NCBI RefSeq assembly: GCF_025685565.1
Contig: NZ_JAGSYE010000001.1
Coordinates: 1,612,001-1,676,000, forward strand
Reading direction: 5' to 3'
DNA: 64,000 nucleotides
DNA from: Granulicella aggregans
Lineage (GTDB): Bacteria > Acidobacteriota > Terriglobia > Terriglobales > Acidobacteriaceae
The notes under the pieces are model-generated. The model was not told the DNA's origin. It worked only from the letters and a program-made list of their open reading frames with translations, and made no database searches. Shown here piece by piece: positions 28,547 to 40,979 of this stretch (within the stretch, counting starts at the first letter, position 1; each line of letters opens with the position of its first letter). The position numbers and the translations under genes were made by a program.

Positions 28547-28880
28547 TCACTGCCAAGCGATATTGATACCGACAAGCTCGACGGCAAGGTCACCGAAGAC
28601 TTCTGGAAGCGGAAGATGGGCGACTGGTAGATGGAAGAACAGCAGGTAAGGATGGCCTTGGACGGGCTCACTCTCGCCGGAACGACCAATCGGGCACTGG
28701 ATGCCGAGAAGGTGTTCGAACTTGCGGATCATGCTTATTATCTTTATCTTAGCCAAGATCCGACGGAAACAGCCAAACTGCTCAGAATGATGTGTTCGAA
28801 CTTTTCCGTGGATGCGCTAAGTGTAACGCCTACATACAGATACCCATTCAACTGATCTTCCAAAAAGTCAAATGGAAGAA
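28547..28880 (+). pseudogene. C-terminal remnant of a large serine recombinase
   Basis: The frame reads DIDTDKLDGKVTEDFWKRKMGDW, a TAG stop (28628-28630), MEEQQVRMALDGL, LDAEKVFELADHAYYLYLSQ and AKLLRMMCSNFSVDALSVTPTYRYPFN. After frame repair IFQKVK(M)EEWSG runs directly into the tRNA-Pro 3' end. This is the hallmark C-terminus of zinc-ribbon serine recombinases that lie next to tRNA genes. The catalytic domain is absent, and there is one stop plus at least one frameshift. Confidence 0.75.
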
Positions 28881-28925
28881 TGGTCGGGACGACTAGATTC
28901 GAACTAGCGACCTCACCCACCCCAA
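28879..28925. repeat. Left attachment repeat (att copy, partial tRNA-Pro)
   Basis: 47 bp identical to 40259-40305. It covers the CCA end, acceptor 3' strand, T-arm and part of the anticodon arm of tRNA-Pro(GGG) on the minus strand. Identity stops sharply at 28926 inside the anticodon stem, so this copy cannot fold as a tRNA. Confidence 0.9.
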
Positions 28926-29536: not shown

Positions 29537-32194
29537 CTACAACACCCGGGGATTCAGCTCCTCCACAATAAAACGTCCCCATGTCTTGAGGACCGCCTTC
29601 GCAACGTTTCTGTATGACTTGGAAGGAATCGAATTGAGCGCCGGGGCGATGGCAGCTTCGAAGCCTTTTCCAGCGCCCGTTCTATCAAGCATCCAAGCCT
29701 CGCTTGCCAACCGAACCTTCGGGAGCCCCAAGGCCACCAACGCAATCTGCGCCCTCAGCCCCTTTTCTTCAATCTGGAGCAGGCTGGATCCCCGTTTCGT
29801 CAGCGCCGCATCGGGACCGTCGTTCTCGATCAGACCAAGAGCCCTTAAGTCATACAGTGGCTTTTCCAAATCTTTCGTCCTCAAAATTCTGCCAAGGTTT
29901 TTGAACCGAAGTAGCACCTCGTAGTCCTTCTCTGGACGCCACTGCGGAATAAACACTGCCGCGCCTGCAGGTCGCTTGGGGAGAAGCCGCAGCCGCCGAC
30001 CAAAATCCACGCCAGCGTATCGGAACCAGGCGATGAAATAGCTGGCATATGTCCGCCATGTCTTGGCACGAAAACTGTATCTTTTAAATGCTAGGCTAAG
30101 GGCTTCGACAACATCCTCATGCGAAATTGTGTCTCCTTCAATCCGCGCCAGAGTTCGTGCCAATATATGCTCCTGGAGTCTGCCTCGCATAAACGCCTTG
30201 AAATCATCTTCGCTTTGAATCGTTGGTCGGATGGTATACCGGTCCTCATCCTGGGCCTTGGTGACCGCACCCAAGTACCGGAGCTCGCGGAGACGATTCA
30301 GCGCCGTCCCCTCACTGAGCCCCGGCGAGCCGGCAAGGATCTCATCGAGGCTGGCGGTTCTTCGCCCGAGAAGAAACTTCAGGGTCTTAACGCATGGCGT
30401 CGGGAACTGCCTTAACAAAAAGCTCTCCCCAATCGGGCGAATCTTCCCCTCCACGAGATAGTCACGAAAAATGTCCCAGTAGACGTTGTATTTTGTTCCG
30501 GACTTGACGATTAGACGCCGGTTCAGTTGAAGCTGCTGGATAACTTGTTCGCTTACTTTTTCGTCAATCTCAGCAGCGTCGAAGGGGTCGCCCTCATATC
30601 CTCGCTTCGCGATGTATCTAAGAGCGCGAATCTCATCGGGCGATAGTATTTCTTCGTCTTCCTTCATCAATTCATCGACGTTTAGGTTTTGATCCACCAG
30701 TTCGTCGGGGCGAATTCCTTTACGCAGCTGATGGTAGCAGTGAATTGATAAACGCTTGATCAGCCATGGAAATCCTTGGGAGCTTTCGCTCAGTTTCCTG
30801 CGCAGGTCAAATGGGACAGCGTGGCCGCTTTCGTCCTCGAGCTGCCGGAGAACCAAATTGATTTCGGAGTCTAACATTGCGTCAACCCCGAAGGGCTCAG
30901 CCAAGTCGCGAGCTTGCTGCCATAGGCTATACGCCGGGTTGTCAATTGGGACGTTAATCTCAGATTTCCAGCTAAACCCAACAATCAAGTTCCCGGACTC
31001 GGCGTTAACGTCCAACATGAATTTATGGAACGCCTGAAACAGGTCCGCCTTGCGAAACATGTCCTCAAACTGATCGAAAACGAGAACTAGGACCTTGCGG
31101 TTTTCTGAAAGCCAATCGAGAAGAGCCCGTGCCTCAGGGGAGGCAAGAACATCGTAGTTAGACGCGACATTCGCACGACTAAATTGGGGCGGGACGAACC
31201 CACTTTTTGCCGCAGAGGCCACCATCTTCGCAAATGCCATGCCCACAAAAGCACCGGTATTGGCGGACCGCGAATCAACTGCCATGACATGGAGCCAGTG
31301 CTTGTTTCGTTTGTTCCGACTGCGTGCCCTTAGTTCCGCTATCAACGAGCTCTTGCCCCAACCAGATTTGCTTTCGATAAAGAAAACCCTTCTAGCTGAA
31401 GTTGATTCGAGGGGTGTGTGCAGAAAAGAGTAAAGATGGTGTCTTACGTCTTTTCTGCCGATAAAAAACTTCGAGCCGACTGGCCGATAGTCGTCCCACT
31501 GCTCAGCCTCCTGTATCTCAGCGACAGCATCGAGGGGGGCTGCAAAAGTTTTTGCTATTTCGACGGATTGCTCCTCTACTTTGTCGAGCCCTCGTACGTC
31601 ATCGAGGTCCGCGATGAATCTCGCTGCGTCGGCTGACAGTTCGCCACCGGATGCTGGAGTCACATGGTAATGCGTAGGAACCACTGTGTCGGAGAGAATC
31701 GTAATCCAGAAACGACCCAAATACGAGTACAGCAGGATCAGCTTTGTCGGCGTCATTCCGGCGGGTGCAGCATGAGAGGGGGCGGGGCCGACCAGTCGCG
31801 CGTGCTGGAGAAGCTCGCAGACTTTGTCGGGTCCCCAGAATATCAGATTCTTGTGTTTTATCGTCGGAACAAGGCCGGCAGCCTGGTGCTGAAGTTCGGT
31901 TGTGTGGACGAAAAATCCGTACTTGGCATGCTTTGCCACAAGCACATTGAATGAGAAATTCTTGATATCGCCCGAATCAATGCTCGTGCGCGCCTTGCAT
32001 TCAACAAGCGCCGTATCAGCTGGCCGATCCAAGTGCTCGCATAGAAGGTCAATTTCGCTTCCGGTGAAATTGACTCTTTGGACCACTTTATAGCGTTGGG
32101 TCTCCATCACAGAACGCAACAGGTTTTCGAAGAAGTCGCCTTTGGACTGTTGAGTTGCGGAAGGATCCGGAATTATCTGTACCTGCTTGATCAT
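29537..32194 (-). CDS. Mrr-like nuclease domain fused to a STAND-type NTPase, winged-helix C-terminus; candidate defence effector
   Basis: 885 residues. Residues 1-135 match a PD-(D/E)xK restriction-endonuclease fold of the Mrr kind: E23, D49 (SEIDLL) and E65/K67 (VECKART). After a linker, FFIGR at 243-247 opens a P-loop NTPase with Walker A SKSGWGKSS (275-283; Ser at the first usual Gly) and Walker B VLVLVFDQFED (368-378; D374, E377), the layout of STAND/AAA_16 ATPases. The C-terminal half has winged-helix-like segments near 605-655 and 757-805 rather than TPR repeats. Domain order nuclease-STAND-sensor recalls Avs-type defence proteins, but it is much shorter and ends differently. It lies next to the left att site, 204 bp after the two-gene unit upstream. 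Function is inferred. Confidence 0.82.
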   Translation of the reverse strand: MIKQVQIIPDPSATQQSKGDFFENLLRSVMETQRYKVVQRVNFTGSEIDLLCEHLDRPADTALVECKARTSIDSGDIKNFSFNVLVAKHAKYGFFVHTTELQHQAAGLVPTIKHKNLIFWGPDKVCELLQHARLVGPAPSHAAPAGMTPTKLILLYSYLGRFWITILSDTVVPTHYHVTPASGGELSADAARFIADLDDVRGLDKVEEQSVEIAKTFAAPLDAVAEIQEAEQWDDYRPVGSKFFIGRKDVRHHLYSFLHTPLESTSARRVFFIESKSGWGKSSLIAELRARSRNKRNKHWLHVMAVDSRSANTGAFVGMAFAKMVASAAKSGFVPPQFSRANVASNYDVLASPEARALLDWLSENRKVLVLVFDQFEDMFRKADLFQAFHKFMLDVNAESGNLIVGFSWKSEINVPIDNPAYSLWQQARDLAEPFGVDAMLDSEINLVLRQLEDESGHAVPFDLRRKLSESSQGFPWLIKRLSIHCYHQLRKGIRPDELVDQNLNVDELMKEDEEILSPDEIRALRYIAKRGYEGDPFDAAEIDEKVSEQVIQQLQLNRRLIVKSGTKYNVYWDIFRDYLVEGKIRPIGESFLLRQFPTPCVKTLKFLLGRRTASLDEILAGSPGLSEGTALNRLRELRYLGAVTKAQDEDRYTIRPTIQSEDDFKAFMRGRLQEHILARTLARIEGDTISHEDVVEALSLAFKRYSFRAKTWRTYASYFIAWFRYAGVDFGRRLRLLPKRPAGAAVFIPQWRPEKDYEVLLRFKNLGRILRTKDLEKPLYDLRALGLIENDGPDAALTKRGSSLLQIEEKGLRAQIALVALGLPKVRLASEAWMLDRTGAGKGFEAAIAPALNSIPSKSYRNVAKAVLKTWGRFIVEELNPRVL

Positions 32195-32398
32195 CTATCC
32201 TCTCAGGTGGCTTCTCGACGCAGCATGGCAGAAGACGCATGAGGCTGCTAGGCAACACACGTTGATAATGAACTGGCTAAGCGCAGACAGGTCCATCCAA
32301 GCTTAACCGAGTTCCGGGCGGCGACCTGACCCAAAGTAAGTAACAATGGTGAGGCGAAGCAGGTTTATTCAAGCCGAGATATCCATGGTTGGAAACCC
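32195..32398. other. Gap between cargo genes
   Basis: 204 bp between the 464-residue and 885-residue genes on the minus strand. It could hold a promoter for the STAND gene; no strong hairpin or core promoter is evident. Confidence 0.35.
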
Positions 32399-33793
32399 CT
32401 AAGACCGCTGGACTTCTGTATCTTCCTGCTCCACTTCGTCAAAGAGCCGTTGTGCATTAGCCAAGGGTGCATTCGGCCTTTCGGTCTCTCCGTTGTTTAC
32501 CGTCTTCACTCCTTGTGAGGAGGTAGCGGCCGGCAACTCTAGATGCTCCTGTGGGCCGATAGACTGTGACGCCTCATGATCGCCCTTCGACTCAGAGCCT
32601 GTCTGTGCCGGGTCGCTCGCCGAATCAACATGCTCTCGGCGAACGGGTTGGTACAGCGAATCTGGAATCGCATCAATCGATTTAAGGATCCGGAGAAATT
32701 CATTCACGATGCCTACTCGGCCTTTGATATCGGAATTGCGGTGCAGCTTCAGAGACTCTATCCCGTCGCGTTGTTTGAGGAAACGTTCGGATATCAAGAG
32801 GTCGGTTATTGACGGAAATGTGGCAGCAAGTTGCGGAGCCTCAATGAGCATCTTAACGATTTGCTGAATCTCCAAGATATACGGTGAGGTTGGCATGGCA
32901 AAGGCAGACTCTTCAAGAGCGGGGTGTATGCCTGTGTGCTGGTAAACCATTTCGGATGTCAACCGATGCGCTGCCCGAAAGATCCGCTTCGCGAACTTGG
33001 CGTCTATATGCCCATAGGTCAGTCCTTTTTGAATAAAGCCGTCGCGCTCTAAGGGGGATAACCCATTTGAGCGTTCACATATCTTCATCAGGAACATGCT
33101 CAATTGCGCCACGCATTCAGAGATGAGAAACTTTGTCAGCGATTCGGATACAAAGCGTTGCTCTCTGAGCTGCCGAGACAAGGAACGAAGATAGTGTAGT
33201 AGGAAATTTATCCCAGCAAATGGCTCGTGAAACCGGACTTCACCCGCGAGAGTTAGGTACAACTCGCGATTAGCTGGTTCGACCTTCAGAGCTTTTTGCC
33301 ATTCGGCCTCGTGGGCTTTGAAAAAATTGCTATCTGATACGCCAAGCCAAATCTCTGACGGGATTCCGATCGCCTTTTCTAGTTCTTCGAGGCGGGGTAG
33401 ATCCAGTATTTCGATTCCTGCCTCCTTGGCGAAATCCTTGATATCCCACTTCGTGCTACGCCGGACAAGCGTCGCACTGCTTGCGTTCACGTACTGTTTT
33501 AGCCCCGCTAACCAAAAAATGCGGTCTAGGGGGCCTTCGCCCCCACTTTTGCACTCCAGGATACGCATCTCCGGTCGGAAAAGCTCGGAATATTTGATTG
33601 CTAAGACGTCGAGATCCGTGGCGTGATTCAGATACTCGGCAGTGTATATTTGGCGTCCCTTCCGCACAAAAAATCCCATGTGTATAAAGAGTCGCGCGAC
33701 GCGACATTCTAAGGCATCGCCGGCAGCAACATTCGGCTTGGGCAGCGACGGTTGCTTTTCGGGTATTCTTGCAGAGTTCCTAGGTTTACTCAT
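32399..33793 (-). CDS. PD-(D/E)xK nuclease-like protein, cargo gene 2
   Basis: 464 residues. The N-terminal about 125 residues show a restriction-endonuclease-like signature: E29 (DALECRVARLF), D62 (TDLDVLAI) and E80-x-K82 (MRILECKSGG), followed by FWLAGLKQYVNASSATLV. This spacing fits a DNA-cutting or resolvase-like core. The middle (about 180-340) is helical and unrecognised. The last about 90 residues are polar and probably disordered. The start codon overlaps the stop of the upstream winged-helix gene by 4 bp (33790-33793), so the two proteins are made together and probably interact. No family name can be given. Confidence 0.75.
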   Translation of the reverse strand: MSKPRNSARIPEKQPSLPKPNVAAGDALECRVARLFIHMGFFVRKGRQIYTAEYLNHATDLDVLAIKYSELFRPEMRILECKSGGEGPLDRIFWLAGLKQYVNASSATLVRRSTKWDIKDFAKEAGIEILDLPRLEELEKAIGIPSEIWLGVSDSNFFKAHEAEWQKALKVEPANRELYLTLAGEVRFHEPFAGINFLLHYLRSLSRQLREQRFVSESLTKFLISECVAQLSMFLMKICERSNGLSPLERDGFIQKGLTYGHIDAKFAKRIFRAAHRLTSEMVYQHTGIHPALEESAFAMPTSPYILEIQQIVKMLIEAPQLAATFPSITDLLISERFLKQRDGIESLKLHRNSDIKGRVGIVNEFLRILKSIDAIPDSLYQPVRREHVDSASDPAQTGSESKGDHEASQSIGPQEHLELPAATSSQGVKTVNNGETERPNAPLANAQRLFDEVEQEDTEVQRS

Positions 33794-35109
33794 CGCCTGT
33801 TCCTATAAGAACGTAGTTCAAATGCTAGCCCGTCCCTCAAGTCGACGAACTCCTTGGGCAGGTCCCTCTTAAGCCTCACGGCATCTGGGGAGCTGAAGTT
33901 CTTGCCTCCGCCTTCCAGAAGCTTCAATGGTACCGATTCTGGAGGGGGGAGAATTACATTTTGCTCCAGCACGTCCCGCACCGACTCAACAACATCTTGT
34001 TTTCTGAGCTCCATATGAAATCGCCCACTGTATATTCTCGACTCGACCACACTTACGATGCCCCTCGCAAGCGGCAAAGGATAGTCCTCTCCTATCGCGG
34101 TCGCTGGCCCGACCTGTCCGTTCCGCAGGAGAGAATTTATTAGGACTGCGGGCTGCATAATCTTCCCACGATCTTGCGTCGAGTAGATTTGGCCGTAGCG
34201 TAGTGAATTCAACAGTAATTTTGAATCGTCGATCAGGTCGCGACTTGGACCCTCTCCTTTAGCGTTGGTAAAAATGCCCCAAGCGTCTGGCGCGGTCGGA
34301 AACTCGCGGATCGTGTTTCCAGATTTAAGTGAGATCGCAGACACGTCTATGATCCCAACGTTGACGAGTAGAGTTACAACCTGGTTATTTGTTCCTTTTG
34401 GGAATGGGAAGCCGGGTTTTCGCTGGACATGCCGTAATATCTCTGTCGCTTCATCCCTCTGAGCCTGCGGCAATCCCTTGATAACCTTGTAAGCATCTGA
34501 AACATTACTCTTGTAAACGTGCGGACTGTATGTTAGAGCATCTCCGCCCTCTGTCTCTGCGGTCTTACCGAGGATGCGAATTGCTACAAGCGTATGGATG
34601 GCGCTGTTGATCTCGGAATCCGAAAAACCTAGAGTGGCCAAGTGTTGGGTCAATTGACCCATCGGCGTCGGTACATGCACCGTGGATTCCAAGACTTCCA
34701 GCGCAGCTCTTGCATTTCGAGTAATGTTGTACCGATCCAGCAGCCGTGAGCATACTGCCATGACCTCCGCCTTCTCACGAACTAGCGCGTCAACACGTAG
34801 GACTGCGGGAGGAGAGACGCTGGAATCCCTGTGCACTGCGATTGCCCCCAGAGCTTCGAGGTGAACCAGACCTTCCGTTGCCTCTCTGCTCTTCAAGCGG
34901 GCATATTTGCGGAATATTTCGAATCTAGGGCCGTCCACTTCTCCTTCGGTCAGCGAACGCACCGATGAAAGAAACCCGGCAACCTTAGCCGCCAAAATAA
35001 CGGCTTCATAATCCTCGAAAACCGGATCTTCTGAATCGAAACAGCTAATTGCCTTATATAAGGCGATAGCCCAACTTCCTCGGCGCACCTGCTCAGCTAC
35101 CTGTGGCAT
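33790..35109 (-). CDS. Unknown winged-helix-like protein, cargo gene 1
   Basis: 439 residues with no signal peptide or membrane helix. Several segments look like winged helices: YARLKSREATEGLVHLEALGAIAVH (about 69-93), MGQLTQHLATLGFSDSEINSAIHTLVAIRILG (about 154-185) and NQVVTLLVNVGIIDVSA (about 243-259). No catalytic motif is seen. It is the first gene of the cargo unit and overlaps the nuclease-like gene by 4 bp. It may bind DNA and target or restrain the nuclease; that is inference. Its promoter region is shared with the resolvase gene and its res-like site. Confidence 0.7.
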   Translation of the reverse strand: MPQVAEQVRRGSWAIALYKAISCFDSEDPVFEDYEAVILAAKVAGFLSSVRSLTEGEVDGPRFEIFRKYARLKSREATEGLVHLEALGAIAVHRDSSVSPPAVLRVDALVREKAEVMAVCSRLLDRYNITRNARAALEVLESTVHVPTPMGQLTQHLATLGFSDSEINSAIHTLVAIRILGKTAETEGGDALTYSPHVYKSNVSDAYKVIKGLPQAQRDEATEILRHVQRKPGFPFPKGTNNQVVTLLVNVGIIDVSAISLKSGNTIREFPTAPDAWGIFTNAKGEGPSRDLIDDSKLLLNSLRYGQIYSTQDRGKIMQPAVLINSLLRNGQVGPATAIGEDYPLPLARGIVSVVESRIYSGRFHMELRKQDVVESVRDVLEQNVILPPPESVPLKLLEGGGKNFSSPDAVRLKRDLPKEFVDLRDGLAFELRSYRNRR

Positions 35110-35240: not shown

Positions 35241-35370
35241 TGTCAGTGTTAGGTATACCTCAAACTGACATGCATCACCTGACACCTGGCAACGCATTTA
35301 GCGTCAGTATAGGGTCGAAAGTGAATTACTTGACATCAGCCACGGGAGGTCTTAGAGTCTAACCTGACAC
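35241..35370. promoter_or_regulatory. res-like recombination/operator site of the serine resolvase
   Basis: Site I is an imperfect 30-bp palindrome at 35241-35270: TGTCAGT at one end, ACTGACA at the other, centre GGTATACC. Further TGTCAG-type half-sites lie at 35279-35284 and 35302-35307 (inverted, site II) and at 35331-35335 and 35364-35369 (site III). Three subsites next to the start of a resolvase gene is the Tn3-type res plan. The site also occupies the space upstream of the cargo operon. Confidence 0.6.
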
Positions 35371-35384
35371 TCCGGGGAGGAGCG

Positions 35385-35960
35385 ATGGTGGCAGCGGCAA
35401 GACGAGGTGGCAAACGAGTCGGGTACATTCGGGTAAGCAGTGCTGACCAGAACGCTGCCAGGCAGCTCGAAGGGGTTGAACTCGACAAAGCTTTTACCGA
35501 CAAGGCGAGCGGCAAGGATGTGAAGCGGCCACAGCTTCAGGCGGCACTTGAGTATCTGCGGGACGGCGACGTGCTGATCGTTCACAGTATGGATCGGTTG
35601 GCGCGCAACCTGGTCGATTTGCGAACGATGGTGGAGAACCTTACTGAACGAGGCGTTCAAGTGCGCTTCGAGAAAGAAAACCTAATCTTCACGGGCGACG
35701 ATACGTCTGCCGCAAAGCTGTTGCTGTCGGTCATGGGGGCAGTGGCAGAGTTCGAGCGGTCTATGCTTAAGGAGCGTCAGCGGGAAGGGATTGAGATTGC
35801 AAAGAAGGCCGGCGTCTATCGAGGCCGCAGGCCGTCTCTGACTCCTGAGCGTGCAAGTGAGCTGCGTAGGCGTGTGGCCGACGGTGAGAAACGAGCTGGC
35901 CTTGCTCGGGAGTTCGGGATTTCACGCCAAACGCTTTACCAGCACGCGCCGGTCAAGTGA
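35385..35960 (+). CDS. Tn3-type serine resolvase/invertase
   Basis: 191 residues. Catalytic S18 in GYIRVSSADQNAARQL, conserved Arg cluster in HSMDRLARNLVDL, and a C-terminal HTH (LAREFGISRQTLYQHA). Length is right for a small resolvase with one DNA-binding domain. GGGGAGG lies 5 bp before the ATG. It probably resolves dimers of the excised, replicating element at the adjacent res-like site. By binding there it may also regulate itself and the divergent cargo genes. Confidence 0.92.
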   Translation: MVAAARRGGKRVGYIRVSSADQNAARQLEGVELDKAFTDKASGKDVKRPQLQAALEYLRDGDVLIVHSMDRLARNLVDLRTMVENLTERGVQVRFEKENLIFTGDDTSAAKLLLSVMGAVAEFERSMLKERQREGIEIAKKAGVYRGRRPSLTPERASELRRRVADGEKRAGLAREFGISRQTLYQHAPVK

Positions 35961-36026: not shown

Positions 36027-36740
36027 ATGTCAGATGTGAACTCTTCAAACGCCGGGCATGTCGAGCAAGAGACAGAAATCGACTCCTACGATCCCGATCA
36101 ATATCAGCACTACACAGAGTTTGAGAGCGACTGGTTCAAGCCGGATTACAGCAACAAGTGGGTTCTGAAGTTTCTCCAGTTCGTATCGGAAGATCATCTT
36201 CTCCAAGCTGCCTGGGACAGGATTGACCAGCAACGTGAGAGTCAAGAGGATCTTGTGAGCCTCGTTTGGGGAGCTGTAAAGGACGGAAAACGACGCCCCG
36301 AAGAAATCGAAGCAGCCCAATTACAGGCTGACCAACTTCGCCGCACACTCGCGAAGATAAATCGTTCTGTCGCAAGGGCAACGTCTGAACTGAAAACTTC
36401 GGAGACTACATACCCAGGAGTCTTAGTCTACGACTCGCCCGGCTGGCCGACGCAGATGGGTGAATTGGGGGAACGCCTTGGCGAGTGCGCTCGATTGGGT
36501 TTAGAGCTAGAAGACCATTTCAAACGCAACGCGCATCGAGGTAGGAGATCGGACGTCAGCGAAAGCTTCTACGTCTCAGTGAAGGGAATGAGAGACCGGC
36601 ACCCGCTTACTTATGAGGATATTGCTGGCCTCCTTCGTGCCGGTTACTCGGCGGCCGGCGTAGCGCAAGAGGTCGACGCGAAGGACGTTCGGGAACGGAT
36701 GTTAAGCGGGGAACAACTCTTCAAGCTGGTTCACGGTTAA
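36027..36740 (+). CDS. Unknown element protein, 237 residues
   Basis: Acidic N-terminus (EQETEIDSYDPDQYQHYTEFES). The middle is helical and likely coiled-coil (AAQLQADQLRRTLAKINRSVARATSELK). The C-terminal part has HPLTYEDIAGLLRAGYSAAGVAQEV, possibly an HTH. Not recognised. It follows the resolvase in the same direction and precedes the Rep gene, so a role in replication or maintenance is possible. Confidence 0.55.
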   Translation: MSDVNSSNAGHVEQETEIDSYDPDQYQHYTEFESDWFKPDYSNKWVLKFLQFVSEDHLLQAAWDRIDQQRESQEDLVSLVWGAVKDGKRRPEEIEAAQLQADQLRRTLAKINRSVARATSELKTSETTYPGVLVYDSPGWPTQMGELGERLGECARLGLELEDHFKRNAHRGRRSDVSESFYVSVKGMRDRHPLTYEDIAGLLRAGYSAAGVAQEVDAKDVRERMLSGEQLFKLVHG

Positions 36741-36761
36741 TCTGGCCGTATGTCCGACGGA

Positions 36762-36789
36762 CAAAATCGGCCTAAAACCCCCGATTTTG
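36762..36789 (+). terminator. Hairpin between the unknown gene and rep
   Basis: CAAAATCGG (36762-36770) pairs with CCGATTTTG (36781-36789) over a 10-nt loop, 21 bp after the stop at 36740; TTCGGTTTT follows. A second palindrome TGTCCGACGGACA (36751-36763) abuts it. It may be a terminator, or part of the Rep origin. Confidence 0.5.
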
Positions 36790-36964
36790 TTCGGTTTTAG
36801 AAATTGCCGCCGCTTGATAACTTTGAACTCGGGAGGTTGGGGAGCTGGCTGCATCTTGTAATACGTCATGCCGAGAATCGAACACACTCGTGCCTAAGGA
36901 GACAGCATCCATTCTGTTTTCTGTCACTTAGCGAGGGCGCACCAAGCCCCATCGCGGAAACTCA

Positions 36965-37720
36965 TTGTCTGCATATTTTGATCCGCTAGAAAGGATCTCA
37001 AACGATATATCGGGGTTGCTCCAGCGTCATGGCTTCGACCGCGATTCGATCCGCGTAAGGGACTGTTACGGCTGGACTCATTGCAAGTCAGCATTTTGCA
37101 TAAAGTGCGCGAGTCGGAGGGTATGGAAGCAGCGTAGCCACCTCAAAAGGGAGTTGCCGGCTCTGCTTGAGGTTGCTCCTTCTCGCCAGCTCTGGTTCCT
37201 CACCGGTGCCGCCGAGGATGGTTCCGATGTCCGGGAGCTATCACAGGCAGCGATGCTGGGGATGAATCGAATCGTGAGACATCCACGCCTAAAGAACAGG
37301 GTCATCTCCAGCTTCAGCGTGCTGGAAATAGCCCACAAGACCAATCGGGTTGATCCCTGTTGCCACGTTCATACGCTCGTTGTCACAGAACCGATGCACC
37401 AGGGCAGACACCGTATCTCTGAACGCGAGTGGATTGAGCTGTGGGAAGAATGCTGCCCTAGGCCAAGGAAGCGTGATCCCACTGTCCCTCTTGTCCGATC
37501 GAACGCTCGTAAACCCAAACCGAACCTGAGCTTTGTGGCAGAGAGAGTGCCAAGAACAGCTCAGGACATAGCCAAAGTCATCCACTACTGCACGAAGTGG
37601 GCGACACCCTGGAGGATAATAGACAGCTACCGGACCTTGCTTGCCAACCCCCACCTTTTCATTGAGCGGATCAATGCGTTGGTGGGAGTAACCAGATTCT
37701 CTGGCGAGCTACACGCCTAA
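36965..37720 (+). CDS. HUH-type rolling-circle replication initiator (Rep_1-like)
   Basis: 251 residues from TTG 36965 (an in-frame stop lies shortly upstream and the next Met is at residue 100). A Cys-rich N-terminus (C34, C40, C45, C48 and a downstream RRVWKQR) looks zinc-binding. Motif 1 is LWFLTGA; motif 2 is the HUH pair H134-V-H136 in CCHVHTLVV; motif 3 is Y208-C-T-K211. This is the arrangement of rolling-circle Rep proteins with a single catalytic Tyr. It would nick a double-strand origin, probably nearby, and let the excised element replicate. Such a gene inside a tRNA-integrated acidobacterial element is unusual. Confidence 0.75.
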   Translation: MSAYFDPLERISNDISGLLQRHGFDRDSIRVRDCYGWTHCKSAFCIKCASRRVWKQRSHLKRELPALLEVAPSRQLWFLTGAAEDGSDVRELSQAAMLGMNRIVRHPRLKNRVISSFSVLEIAHKTNRVDPCCHVHTLVVTEPMHQGRHRISEREWIELWEECCPRPRKRDPTVPLVRSNARKPKPNLSFVAERVPRTAQDIAKVIHYCTKWATPWRIIDSYRTLLANPHLFIERINALVGVTRFSGELHA

Positions 37721-37856
37721 CCCTCACCCCTTCAATCGCCGGCTCTGACTACAACCCTCTGCAGGTTCTAGGTCTCGGCTCGGAATCCCTTGAAATCATG
37801 TTGTGCCACTTCGGCCTCACGGCCGCTTGGGGACAACTCACCCTAAAAAGGAACCT

Positions 37857-38387
37857 ATGAAACGTCTAGCAAAACAGCCGAAGCCGGTTGCGGCAGAACT
37901 GTGCCCTCCGGAGCCTGTAACTCTCACCGTAACCGCGATGCCTTTGATGTTCGCCTATGCCCTTGATGGCCCAACGGAGATCCAGCACCATCGCAGTGTT
38001 CGTAGTAGCCTTGGGCCGCATTTTGGTCTGATCGCCGCGACCATGCGTGGGCTAGAGATGTTGACCAACTCCAGGGTAGGCCGTTTTATCGACGACCACC
38101 TCGCCGCTGGAACCCTGTCAATGTCCGATCCTGGCGATGCTCAATCATCGTCCGGCCCAATTCGACCAGAAACTCCGAAATTACCCCTGCGGATTTTCAC
38201 TGATAGCCAAGAACTGATTGTCGTGGGAGAGACCAGTCTCCCGGCCGCTCCCGAGTCGACGGTCAGCGACTTCGCTCAATTCAGACGGCAGCTTCTCCGG
38301 TTTGACGTTTGTTGGGAGCTGGTTTCGTCTCGCGCCGAGCGATTGGTCAACCTTCAGGCGTGGGCTCTGCAAACCTGTCTGGTCTGA
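37857..38387 (+). CDS. Unknown element protein, 176 residues
   Basis: ATG 37857 after AAAAAGGAACCT. No signal peptide or membrane helix. A Pro-rich linker (PEPVTLTV, SSSGPIRPETPKLPL) separates two small folded-looking parts; the C-terminus is SDFAQFRRQLLRFDVCWELVSSRAERLVNL. Not recognised. It lies between rep and the excisionase-like gene. Confidence 0.5.
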   Translation: MKRLAKQPKPVAAELCPPEPVTLTVTAMPLMFAYALDGPTEIQHHRSVRSSLGPHFGLIAATMRGLEMLTNSRVGRFIDDHLAAGTLSMSDPGDAQSSSGPIRPETPKLPLRIFTDSQELIVVGETSLPAAPESTVSDFAQFRRQLLRFDVCWELVSSRAERLVNLQAWALQTCLV

Positions 38388-38759: not shown

Positions 38760-38996
38760 TTGCCCACTCAGAATCTACCTACACAAAATGATCAGCCCGT
38801 TGCCAGCTTTGAACCTCTCCTGCCAGCCAGCGCGGCGGCCGCTCTTTTGAGCGTCCACCCCGTCACCATCTTGCGGTGGGCGAGGGAGGGCAGAATCCCA
38901 TTCTTCCGCCTCGGCCGTCGAGTCGCCTTCCGAGCCTCCCAACTTAACGAATGGCTCGCAACCGCATACACTGGCATTGCCGTTCGCGCTGCCTAA
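38760..38996 (+). CDS. Excisionase-like HTH protein
   Basis: 78 residues from a TTG start preceded by GGGAGAAAG. It has a winged MerR/HTH_17 fold: LLPASAAAALLSVHPVTILRWAREGRIPFFRLGRRVAFRASQLNEWL. Such proteins are recombination directionality factors or small regulators. It sits 18 bp before the integrase gene, the usual xis-int order. Confidence 0.85.
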   Translation: MPTQNLPTQNDQPVASFEPLLPASAAAALLSVHPVTILRWAREGRIPFFRLGRRVAFRASQLNEWLATAYTGIAVRAA

Positions 38997-39014: not shown

Positions 39015-40193
39015 ATGAAACTAATCCACAAGCGCAATCGCTACCAACAAGGTTCTTTGACAAAAGAGACGAGAAACAGAGGATCTGACGTGTGGGTCTA
39101 TCGTTGGCGCGAGCCTGTAGGCAATGGGCAAACCTGTCAACGTAAGCGCATCGTCGGGACCGTCGACGAGTACAAAACGAAGTCGGCAGCACAGCGGGCA
39201 GTGGATGGATTGCGGCTCGATATCAATTCGACTGTTACCGCCACACAAGCGAATCACACCGTTGCAGAACTCATAGCCCACTACAAACAAGTTGAGCTTG
39301 AGAGTGGGAGGCACACCCCGAGAGTGCGACAGGTCTACAGGCACAACCTGGACGATCTAATTCTTCCGAAATGGGGAGTCTACCGATTGAAAGACGTGAC
39401 GGCGGTTGCGGTTGAGAGATGGCTGGAGTCTCTGCCATATGCGCCAGCGACCAAAACCAAGGTCAAGGGCGTATTTGGGACGTTGTTCCGCCACGGAATG
39501 CGGTATGAATGGGCAGCCAACAATCCCATTGCTCTGGTGCGGTGTAGCAGTAAGCGCGTAGAGTTGCCGGCCGTCCTCGCGCCTGAAGAGATACGTGCCA
39601 TCTTGGGGGAACTCTCCGAACCCGCTCGGACTGTCACCCTGCTGGCGGCCATAACTGGTATGCGGCGAGGTGAGCTGTTTGGGTTGAAGTGGGAAGACAT
39701 GGATTTTGAACGTCGGACTATCCGCATCGTTCGCAGTCTGGTTGACCAGATTGAGGGGCAACCGAAGACAGAGACCTCAAGGAAGCCTTTGCCGATGTCT
39801 GATTTCCTTGCGGCTGCCCTGAAGAATTGGCGACAGCAAACCAGCTACTCCGATGCCTCAGACTGGGTATTCGCAAGCCCTATGTCCTTTGGCAAGCACC
39901 CTTACTGGCCGGATATGGTTCTACGTCGTCATATCCTACCCGCAGCAAAGCGGTTGGGGATTGATAAGCGTATCGGCTGGCATACATTCAGGCGCACGGC
40001 AGCATCGCTCCTAATGTCGTCTGGTTCAAGTGTGAAGACCACACAAGAACTAATGCGCCACGCAACGGCCGGGATCACGATGGAGCTGTACGCTCAGGCC
40101 GTGACAGAAGACAAGCGGCAGGGACAGAACGCTTTATCAGACCTCATCGCCGGAGCGGGAAGTGCGAGTCTTCCAACGTGCATGTCAGCTTAG
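39015..40193 (+). CDS. Tyrosine site-specific integrase
   Basis: 392 residues. An N-terminal arm-binding part (about 1-60) is followed by a SAM-like core-binding domain (TVAELIAHYKQVELESGRHTP...) and the catalytic domain. The catalytic set is Arg in ITGMRRGELFGLKWEDMD, HTFRR in GWHTFRRTAASLL, and Tyr in GITMELYAQAV. It ends 67 bp from the tRNA-Pro gene, facing it, as expected of the enzyme that made the 47-bp repeats. Full length and apparently functional. Confidence 0.95.
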   Translation: MKLIHKRNRYQQGSLTKETRNRGSDVWVYRWREPVGNGQTCQRKRIVGTVDEYKTKSAAQRAVDGLRLDINSTVTATQANHTVAELIAHYKQVELESGRHTPRVRQVYRHNLDDLILPKWGVYRLKDVTAVAVERWLESLPYAPATKTKVKGVFGTLFRHGMRYEWAANNPIALVRCSSKRVELPAVLAPEEIRAILGELSEPARTVTLLAAITGMRRGELFGLKWEDMDFERRTIRIVRSLVDQIEGQPKTETSRKPLPMSDFLAAALKNWRQQTSYSDASDWVFASPMSFGKHPYWPDMVLRRHILPAAKRLGIDKRIGWHTFRRTAASLLMSSGSSVKTTQELMRHATAGITMELYAQAVTEDKRQGQNALSDLIAGAGSASLPTCMSA

Positions 40194-40222: not shown

Positions 40223-40258
40223 ATTCGTGGGTTTCTAAACCAGTAAGTGATTGAAAGT

Positions 40259-40305
40259 AATGGTCGGGACGACTAGATTCGAACTAGCGACCTCACCCAC
40301 CCCAA
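40259..40305. repeat. Right attachment repeat within the tRNA-Pro gene
   Basis: 47 bp identical to 28879-28925. This copy belongs to the complete tRNA gene, so insertion kept the tRNA functional. Confidence 0.9.
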
Positions 40306-40337
40306 GGGTGCGCTCTACCAGGCTGAGCCACGTCCCG
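40261..40337 (-). tRNA. tRNA-Pro, anticodon GGG
   Basis: 77 nt on the minus strand with encoded CCA. Acceptor CGGGACG pairs with CGTCCCG. The anticodon arm is CACCC-TTGGGGT-GGGTG with GGG at 34-36, and the T-arm contains GTTCGAATC. It is the integration target of the 11.4-kb element, whose left end carries a partial copy. Confidence 0.95.
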
Positions 40338-40534
40338 ACTGTATTGCTGCCGTCTGTCAGGCTCAAGAATCGGGGGATTCAGGCCTCAGACGGCGGGGTA
40401 TGTTGCAAGATCAAGTGTACACGATACGGGGTGTAGGCCGGAGGAAGCGCGGCTCAATAAAGGGTGGTGGCCGACCCACTCATCGCGTAAGACAACGACG
40501 CGATGAATGGGGCACGGACCTGGATAAAGGCCGT

Positions 40535-40807
40535 TCAGTGGGTAGGGGCGACGAATTCCTTGGGCAGGGCTCCGCCTTCGCCGAAGAAGAACTCGTTCAT
40601 CTGCTCGACGAGAAAGTCCTGGGCCTCGCGGGTCCAGGGCTGGAGGCGGTACTCGTTAAGGAGCATCTTCTGGCGCTCGACCCACTCGCCCCAAGCCTTC
40701 TTGCTGACGTTCTTGTAGATCTTCTGGCCGAAGTCGGAGTCGAACGGGGTTTCGTCCAGACCCTCCATCTCAGCCTTGTACTTTACGCAGAAAACCATGT
40801 GTGCCAT
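40535..40807 (-). CDS. yggX: Fe(2+)-trafficking / oxidative damage protection protein, YggX family
   Basis: 90 residues, the standard length. Signature VFCVKYKAEMEGLD at the N-terminus with the conserved Cys, then PFDSDFGQKIYKNVSKKAWGEWVERQKMLLNEYRL. Cytosolic; thought to protect iron-sulfur clusters. First ordinary chromosomal gene beyond the tRNA. Single-gene unit. Confidence 0.93.
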   Translation of the reverse strand: MAHMVFCVKYKAEMEGLDETPFDSDFGQKIYKNVSKKAWGEWVERQKMLLNEYRLQPWTREAQDFLVEQMNEFFFGEGGALPKEFVAPTH

Positions 40808-40979
40808 TGTGTGCGGAATCTCCTGAGAGTTCTATTGTAAGGCGAAGGCTGGACTGTGGGGTCGCCGTCTCTTTCTTCCGGCTGAGTCATTTTTCTTGCG
40901 GCGGGTGAGGTACACTTCAGGCTCCAAAATTCCCGATGACCAGAGAAGCGCTGAAGCAGGTTTCTCCGACGGAGTTCCC

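Follow-up and report, generated by a model that had tools for sequence, protein, structure and literature searches.

The 64,000-nt stretch of Granulicella aggregans DNA analysed here (the window) contains an 11,380-bp element that lies between perfect 47-nt direct repeats and carries xis, int, a serine resolvase gene and rep. Our analysis indicates that this element, whose cargo looks restriction/defence-like, is probably an integrative rolling-circle plasmid. What is new is that a glutamate (Glu) reported as universal in the pC194 family is, in the aligned sequences, replaced in the window Rep and its kin.

Ends, insertion site and gene content

The left repeat (attL-like, 28879-28925) is a perfect copy of the 3' part of a tRNA-Pro gene. 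The right repeat (attR-like, 40259-40305) lies within that gene, tRNA-Pro(ggg) (40261-40337, minus strand), which is the target and was kept whole, in agreement with the initial annotation of the element as tRNA-integrated. A count across the whole genome, allowing up to 3 mismatches, gave two copies of the 47-nt att word. The outer flanks are contiguous in the same-genus genome G357, where window positions 28771-28925 and 40250-40839 matched overlapping stretches of one locus (L059). Joined over a single att copy, the flanks showed 249 of 293 positions identical to this locus, including all 47 nt; the 5 gap positions are all in the left flank and the junction is ungapped. The empty site of G357 shows one precise past insertion into tRNA-Pro.

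A tRNA-Pro/flank query was matched in 59 of 60 same-genus genomes. Among the matches listed, several genomes (for instance G305, G034, G209, G336 and G348) have extra copies of the att stretch, so the tRNA-Pro site looks like a hotspot. At G209:C2:966000-979900 (L060) the same tRNA-Pro is occupied by an element that combines other genes with an integrase related to that of the window, in which the Rep_1 profile search of same-family genomes gave no match. A methylase-like gene was noticed by eye in that element. Next to the tRNA in the window (40460-40519) lies a repeat, some 50-60 nt long and perhaps of REP type, that is dispersed: this genome has seven or more other copies, and G357 has several.

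Family profiles recovered the xis-int pair and the resolvase that had been proposed from the letters alone. The Xis-like protein (38760-38996, plus strand) matched HTH_17 and the excise domain TIGR01764, and the tyrosine integrase (39015-40193, plus strand; PF00589) reads towards the tRNA. The serine resolvase/invertase-type recombinase (35385-35960, plus strand) carries PF00239 and HTH_7 in Pfam. Five TGTCA/TGACA words lie 5' of it, the first pair forming a 30-nt near-palindrome (TGTCAGT..CTGACA, 35241-35270) that is a possible res site. The plus-strand ORF between resolvase and rep (36027-36740) has no Pfam family above cut-off, and none was assigned to the ORF just 3' of rep (37803-38387, plus strand; searched also from 37857), a relative of which, 31% identical, directly follows rep in locus L026.

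The cargo comprises three genes on the minus strand. One encodes an 885-aa restriction/defence-like protein with Mrr_cat and nSTAND1 domains in Pfam (29537-32194). In Pfam and PADLOC, the 464-aa protein (32399-33793) had no family above cut-off and the 439-aa protein (33790-35109) had none assigned; by eye the former has what we take to be a PD-(D/E)XK-like look. PADLOC gave no match for any of the three (29537-35109), which together form a candidate undescribed restriction/defence operon.

Pfam scans detected no Tra, relaxase or coupling-protein domains in the nine element proteins and no FtsK/SpoIIIE-like Tra in ten window proteins (these nine and one at the left edge). The host genome contains one match to a T4SS coupling protein, outside the element. 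The proposed likeness to pSAM2-type elements thus holds for the lifestyle and not for transfer.

The Rep protein, its active site and candidate nick sites

The rep ORF (36965-37720, plus strand) is complete and without interruption, and encodes 251 aa from a TTG start that aligns with the start of a relative from a Granulicella MAG (MSKFYPSLERVS vs MSAYFDPLERIS). Its product matched Pfam Rep_1 (PF01446) with E=3.7e-12 and 46.7 bits against a curated cut-off of 33.2, which bears out the Rep_1-like HUH rolling-circle initiator of the initial annotation; the only other Pfam row, zf_RING-like, stayed under its cut-off. Plasmid records matching the Rep by protein number 1071, and the 20 among the matches listed are all annotated 'protein rep', with 24-30% identity. 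Searches of NCBIfam, PHROGs, PADLOC, PDB sequences and a phage collection revealed no match, and viral contigs gave no relative of the Rep, either with a profile of the clade alignment or with the Rep of locus L036 as query. A first search of a collection of genome contigs revealed no relative; a second detected one locus (L068), evidently the same contig as that of L026 in the same-family genome G279. The rep gene is present as a single chromosomal copy in its own genome. An AlphaFold2 model built from the window Rep and L068 had a pLDDT of 39, too poor for use.

The HVH and YCTK motifs and the Cys-rich N-terminus noted initially correspond to H134-V-H136, Y208-C-T-K211 and C34, C40, C45 and C48; E121 and K204 complete the residues considered here. 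The four Cys, E121, H134, H136, Y208 and K211 are identical in 14/14 aligned plasmid Reps, which were chosen non-randomly from match lists and come from Bacillus, Escherichia, Klebsiella, Raoultella, lactobacilli, Streptococcus thermophilus, Exiguobacterium, one cyanobacterium and one uncultured source. Assignment to a non-Rep family or loss of the Tyr and His residues in homologues had been named as evidence against an initiator; beside the Rep_1 assignment, alignment of acidobacterial sequences showed the Tyr and Lys of YxxK kept in 15/15 and both HUH His in 13/14, the exception being L029 with HxN, and fragment L023 being without that part. Four weaker or more distant matches (L033, L082, L085 and L087), left out of this 15-sequence alignment, have no readable YxxK after the HUH region.

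According to a review (PMC5703833), pC194 RepA depends on Tyr214, Glu142 and Glu210, the last with a presumed role in the hydrolysis by which replication terminates, and these catalytic residues are universally conserved in the pC194 family. Y208 is the equivalent of Tyr214, and E121 that of Glu142 by way of other plasmid Reps, not pC194 itself. Four residues before the Tyr (Tyr-4), Glu is found in 14/14 plasmid Reps and Lys204 in the window Rep. Its kin have Arg (L022, L026 and the fragment L023), Asp (L024), Gly (L036) or Ala (L030 and L031, blank here in the alignment and read directly from the motif) at this position, and six acidobacterial Reps keep the Glu (L025, L027, L028, L029, L034 and L035). 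Outside the family, the residue is Glu in L083 (from a third family of the phylum), Ala in L084 and Arg in L086. In L032 and in L079-L081, three long Reps of another family of the phylum, YxxxY replaces ExxxY. The two-tyrosine YxxxY arrangement is that of phiX174-type initiators.

The origin of pC194/pUB110 plasmids is given as CTT(G)TTCTTTCTTATCTTGATA, ending ..CTTATCTTGATA, in an extract of PMC5031790. Upstream of rep we found two candidate nick sites, both inside the range 36741-36964 in which the initial annotation had suggested looking for one, and neither strong. The first, CTTGATAA (36813-36820, plus strand), lies 152 nt before the rep start and is weak. Its CTTGATA comes without the CTTAT part of the pC194-type ..CTTATCTTGATA nick, is found elsewhere in the element three more times on the same strand and twice on the other, and does not occur before rep in L022 and L026, the nearest relatives. 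In plasmids, CTTGATA precedes rep by 164-326 nt in 8 of 14 stretches; for some of the remainder, the available sequence extends only a short way 5' of rep. The second candidate, CTTGTAAT (36855-36862, plus strand), is the sole 8-mer common to the window, L022 and L026 upstream of rep, where no 9-mer is shared. It was equalled in 4, 16 and 76 of 1000 shuffles for stretches of 250, 460 and 700 nt, word and stretch length having been picked after looking.

In the Glu-type loci L025, L027, L028, L034 and L035, CTTGATA was seen in the 5' coding end of rep itself (TTCACTTGATA, with the same codons in 5/5); the five form one clade, and the amino acids at this stretch are conserved as well. A constraint on the DNA of TTCACTTGATA is likely in these five, and this pC194-like nick word with its shared codons suggests that their origin may lie inside the rep gene.

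Relatives, recurrence of the layout and the resolvase

Matches to PF01446 came from 13 of 398 same-family genomes (12 above cut-off) and, in a phylum sample, from 13 of 347 (10 above cut-off); both counts include the window's own genome, and five genomes are common to the two lists. Control genomes gave 0/14. The close clade of the window Rep is rare: the window Rep alone as query had matches in 3 of 150 same-family genomes, and a profile of the window, L022 and L026 Reps matched 3 of 298 genomes of the order and 2 of 396 of the phylum, with the window's own genome counted in. The nearest relative is just 50% identical to the window Rep, and identities with the L022/L026 clade are 45-50%; the three Reps keep every nicking residue and share 78 invariant positions.

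The combination of int and Rep_1 between tRNA-touching direct repeats (19-47 nt) was found in 5 of 15 fetched relative regions. These are L022 (tRNA-Met, 45-nt repeat, ~7.0 kb, with a methylase as cargo), L025 (tRNA-Val, 47 nt, ~11.3 kb, type III-like restriction and methylase), L026 (tRNA-Val, 19 nt, ~7.9 kb, radical SAM/Alg14-like), L031 (tRNA-Val, 46 nt, ~7.9 kb, EAL-PAS) and L030 (tRNA-Ser, 21 nt, ~7.7 kb), in which nothing was recognised in the two cargo proteins scanned. L032 has a 42-nt tRNA-Val-like repeat with no tRNA called there, and the other 9 of the 15 regions, several of them short contigs, have no tRNA-linked repeat.

The contig of L024 (G101:C3; 17,435 nt) is self-repeating, its period being 8,909 nt (2 mismatches in 8,526 positions compared); such a self-repeat is the mark of an over-walked circle, and the contig therefore reads as an 8,909-bp circle. 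The unit encodes a Rep_1 protein 28% identical to the window Rep and a resolvase 57% identical to that of the window. L024 is likely a free plasmid, and the plasmid-like free state postulated for the window element is in keeping with such relatives. By eye, the unit also has a ParA-like ORF and a second plasmid-initiator-like ORF, and it is perhaps a plasmid with two replication systems. No integrase was found in the unit. Given these two ORFs, the low identity of its Rep and the missing integrase, the Rep_1 of L024 need not be the protein that replicates the circle.

Relatives of the window resolvase, 52-62% identical, lie near Rep_1 in L024, L030 and L031. A resolvase is present in 6 of 7 non-Glu loci (the window, L022, L024, L026, L030 and L031; none found on the short contig of L036), as against 0 of 6 Glu-type loci (Fisher p=0.005), a count in which the profile seeds are those same six resolvase-positive loci and may favour them, and in which one of the six, L024, has an acidic Asp that might substitute for Glu. 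The count leaves out L023 (fragment, Arg), L032 (distant, YxxxY) and L033 (no YxxK read), in which the resolvase profile found nothing, as well as the fragment L088 and the out-of-family loci L079-L087, of which L085 and L087 gave weaker resolvase matches (E about 1e-21). Because the non-Glu Reps map to one side of a single, weakly supported branch of the Rep tree (63/88), the association amounts to one observation, not thirteen. We therefore did not retain it as independent evidence, in view of this one branch, the undefined ends of several Glu-type loci and the reuse of seeds.

The resolvases fall into two subfamilies, with 52-69% identity among the window, L024, L030 and L031, 62% between L022 and L026, and 30-36% between the groups. 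As the window Rep is closest to those of L022 and L026, these elements seem to have swapped one resolvase for another without ever giving up the function, as if these close Reps needed a resolvase that may yet be replaced. A more far-reaching proposal is that Rep_1 proteins without the termination Glu form a lineage of this acidobacterial family with a dedicated multimer-cutting serine resolvase, so that replication and termination would be split between two proteins; we regard this as doubtful.

Interpretation and comparison with known systems

From the anatomy of the element, Int would insert an 11.38-kb circle at the 3' end of tRNA-Pro and, together with Xis, excise it again. In the free state, as in other members of the family, Rep would bind an origin adjoining its own gene, and Y208 and the HUH metal site would nick one strand; host enzymes would extend the 3' end and Rep would close the displaced circle. 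The serine resolvase would turn multimers into monomers. The left third is cargo, including the Mrr/STAND restriction-like protein. With Lys204 at the position of Glu210, circle closing would, speculatively, proceed via another residue or be less exact than in pC194; inexact closing would in turn make the resolvase more needed.

The missing catalytic Glu, the TTG start of rep and the single chromosomal copy speak against an integrative plasmid. They would suit an island that was inserted once as a plasmid, whose Rep no longer works and which is inherited only with the chromosome, as would the rarity of the window-type Rep and its distance from the nearest relative. However, Rep, int and xis have all stayed intact, as have the att copies, which match each other exactly, and we consider such a stranded island unlikely. 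Since Reps 45-50% identical to one another retain the nicking residues and the 78 invariant positions, rep was under selection after the Glu was lost.

Rep might instead act mainly as a relaxase, nicking the excised element for transfer via a resident conjugation system. According to PMC5714925, Rep_1 plasmids lacking a mob gene are mobilised by ICEBs1. No mob gene was seen among the nine proteins of the element that were scanned, the host genome has its one T4SS coupling-protein match, and the absent termination Glu would suit an enzyme that nicks once. By analogy with ICEBs1 and Rep_1 plasmids, Rep-driven mobilisation is possible; that it is the main role of Rep we hold to be improbable, more so than a stranded island. 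Least probable is a phage satellite or degraded prophage. Its tRNA site, int and xis are common to satellites, PHROGs matched the integrase and the excisionase, and the Xis-like protein also matched a terminase-small-subunit PHROG (E=5e-4); yet the excisionase match of this same HTH protein is far stronger (1.8e-9), no other structural or packaging family was detected in Pfam or in PHROGs at E<0.01 (six proteins, the three cargo proteins excluded), and the Rep has no phage or viral-contig relative. The weak terminase match and the lack of other phage families and phage Rep relatives led us to reject this label.

As an integrative rolling-circle plasmid, the element would belong to a family of tRNA-integrated elements of 7-11 kb that are built on an int/rep core, in many cases with a resolvase, and whose restriction/defence-like cargo can be exchanged. 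Acidobacteria abound in soil, and little of their mobilome has been described; such a family would account for part of the gene exchange among them, and vectors could be built on its members. With the Glu missing from the window Rep and its kin, a feature stated to be universal in pC194-type termination can be tested in natural enzymes. The literature searched, with most subscription papers outside its scope, describes no acidobacterial rolling-circle or integrative plasmid, and an excerpt of PMC5900883 names nothing of this kind beside prophages, transposons and IS.

With pC194/pUB110 plasmids the element shares the Rep_1 profile, the Cys tetrad, the metal Glu, HUH, YxxK and a CTTGATA word before rep, at 152 nt here and at 164-326 nt in the 8 of 14 plasmid stretches that have one. 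It differs from them in Lys in place of the termination Glu, in int/xis integration and in its resolvase. A strict definition of the pC194 family asks for the Glu210 equivalent at Tyr-4, where the window Rep has K204.

pSAM2, at about 11 kb, and other actinomycete AICEs resemble the element in size (~11 kb), tRNA att, xis-int and a rolling-circle Rep. The consulted part of PMC3218068 takes a RepSA, RepAM or Prim-Pol module as the defining trait of AICEs and gives pSAM2-type elements an FtsK-like Tra; it also cites earlier work that assigned pSAM2 to the pC194 family. The window element, in contrast, is without an FtsK-like Tra, and its replication module is Rep_1, with no RepAM or Prim-Pol domain; RepSA has no Pfam model in the list given in that part of PMC3218068. 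We rejected a strict pSAM2/AICE label, no Tra having been found. IMEs have in common with the element int/xis, cargo and no mating pore, but differ from it in that no relaxase domain was found in the element by Pfam. pHS87b of Pseudomonas aeruginosa is similar in its 11.2 kb and its 45-bp att at a tRNA 3' end and has both free and integrated forms, whereas it has phage-related genes and no known replication gene, according to an excerpt of PMC4739549. In the window element, int, att and a replication gene of its own, the combination that characterises an integrative plasmid, are present together.
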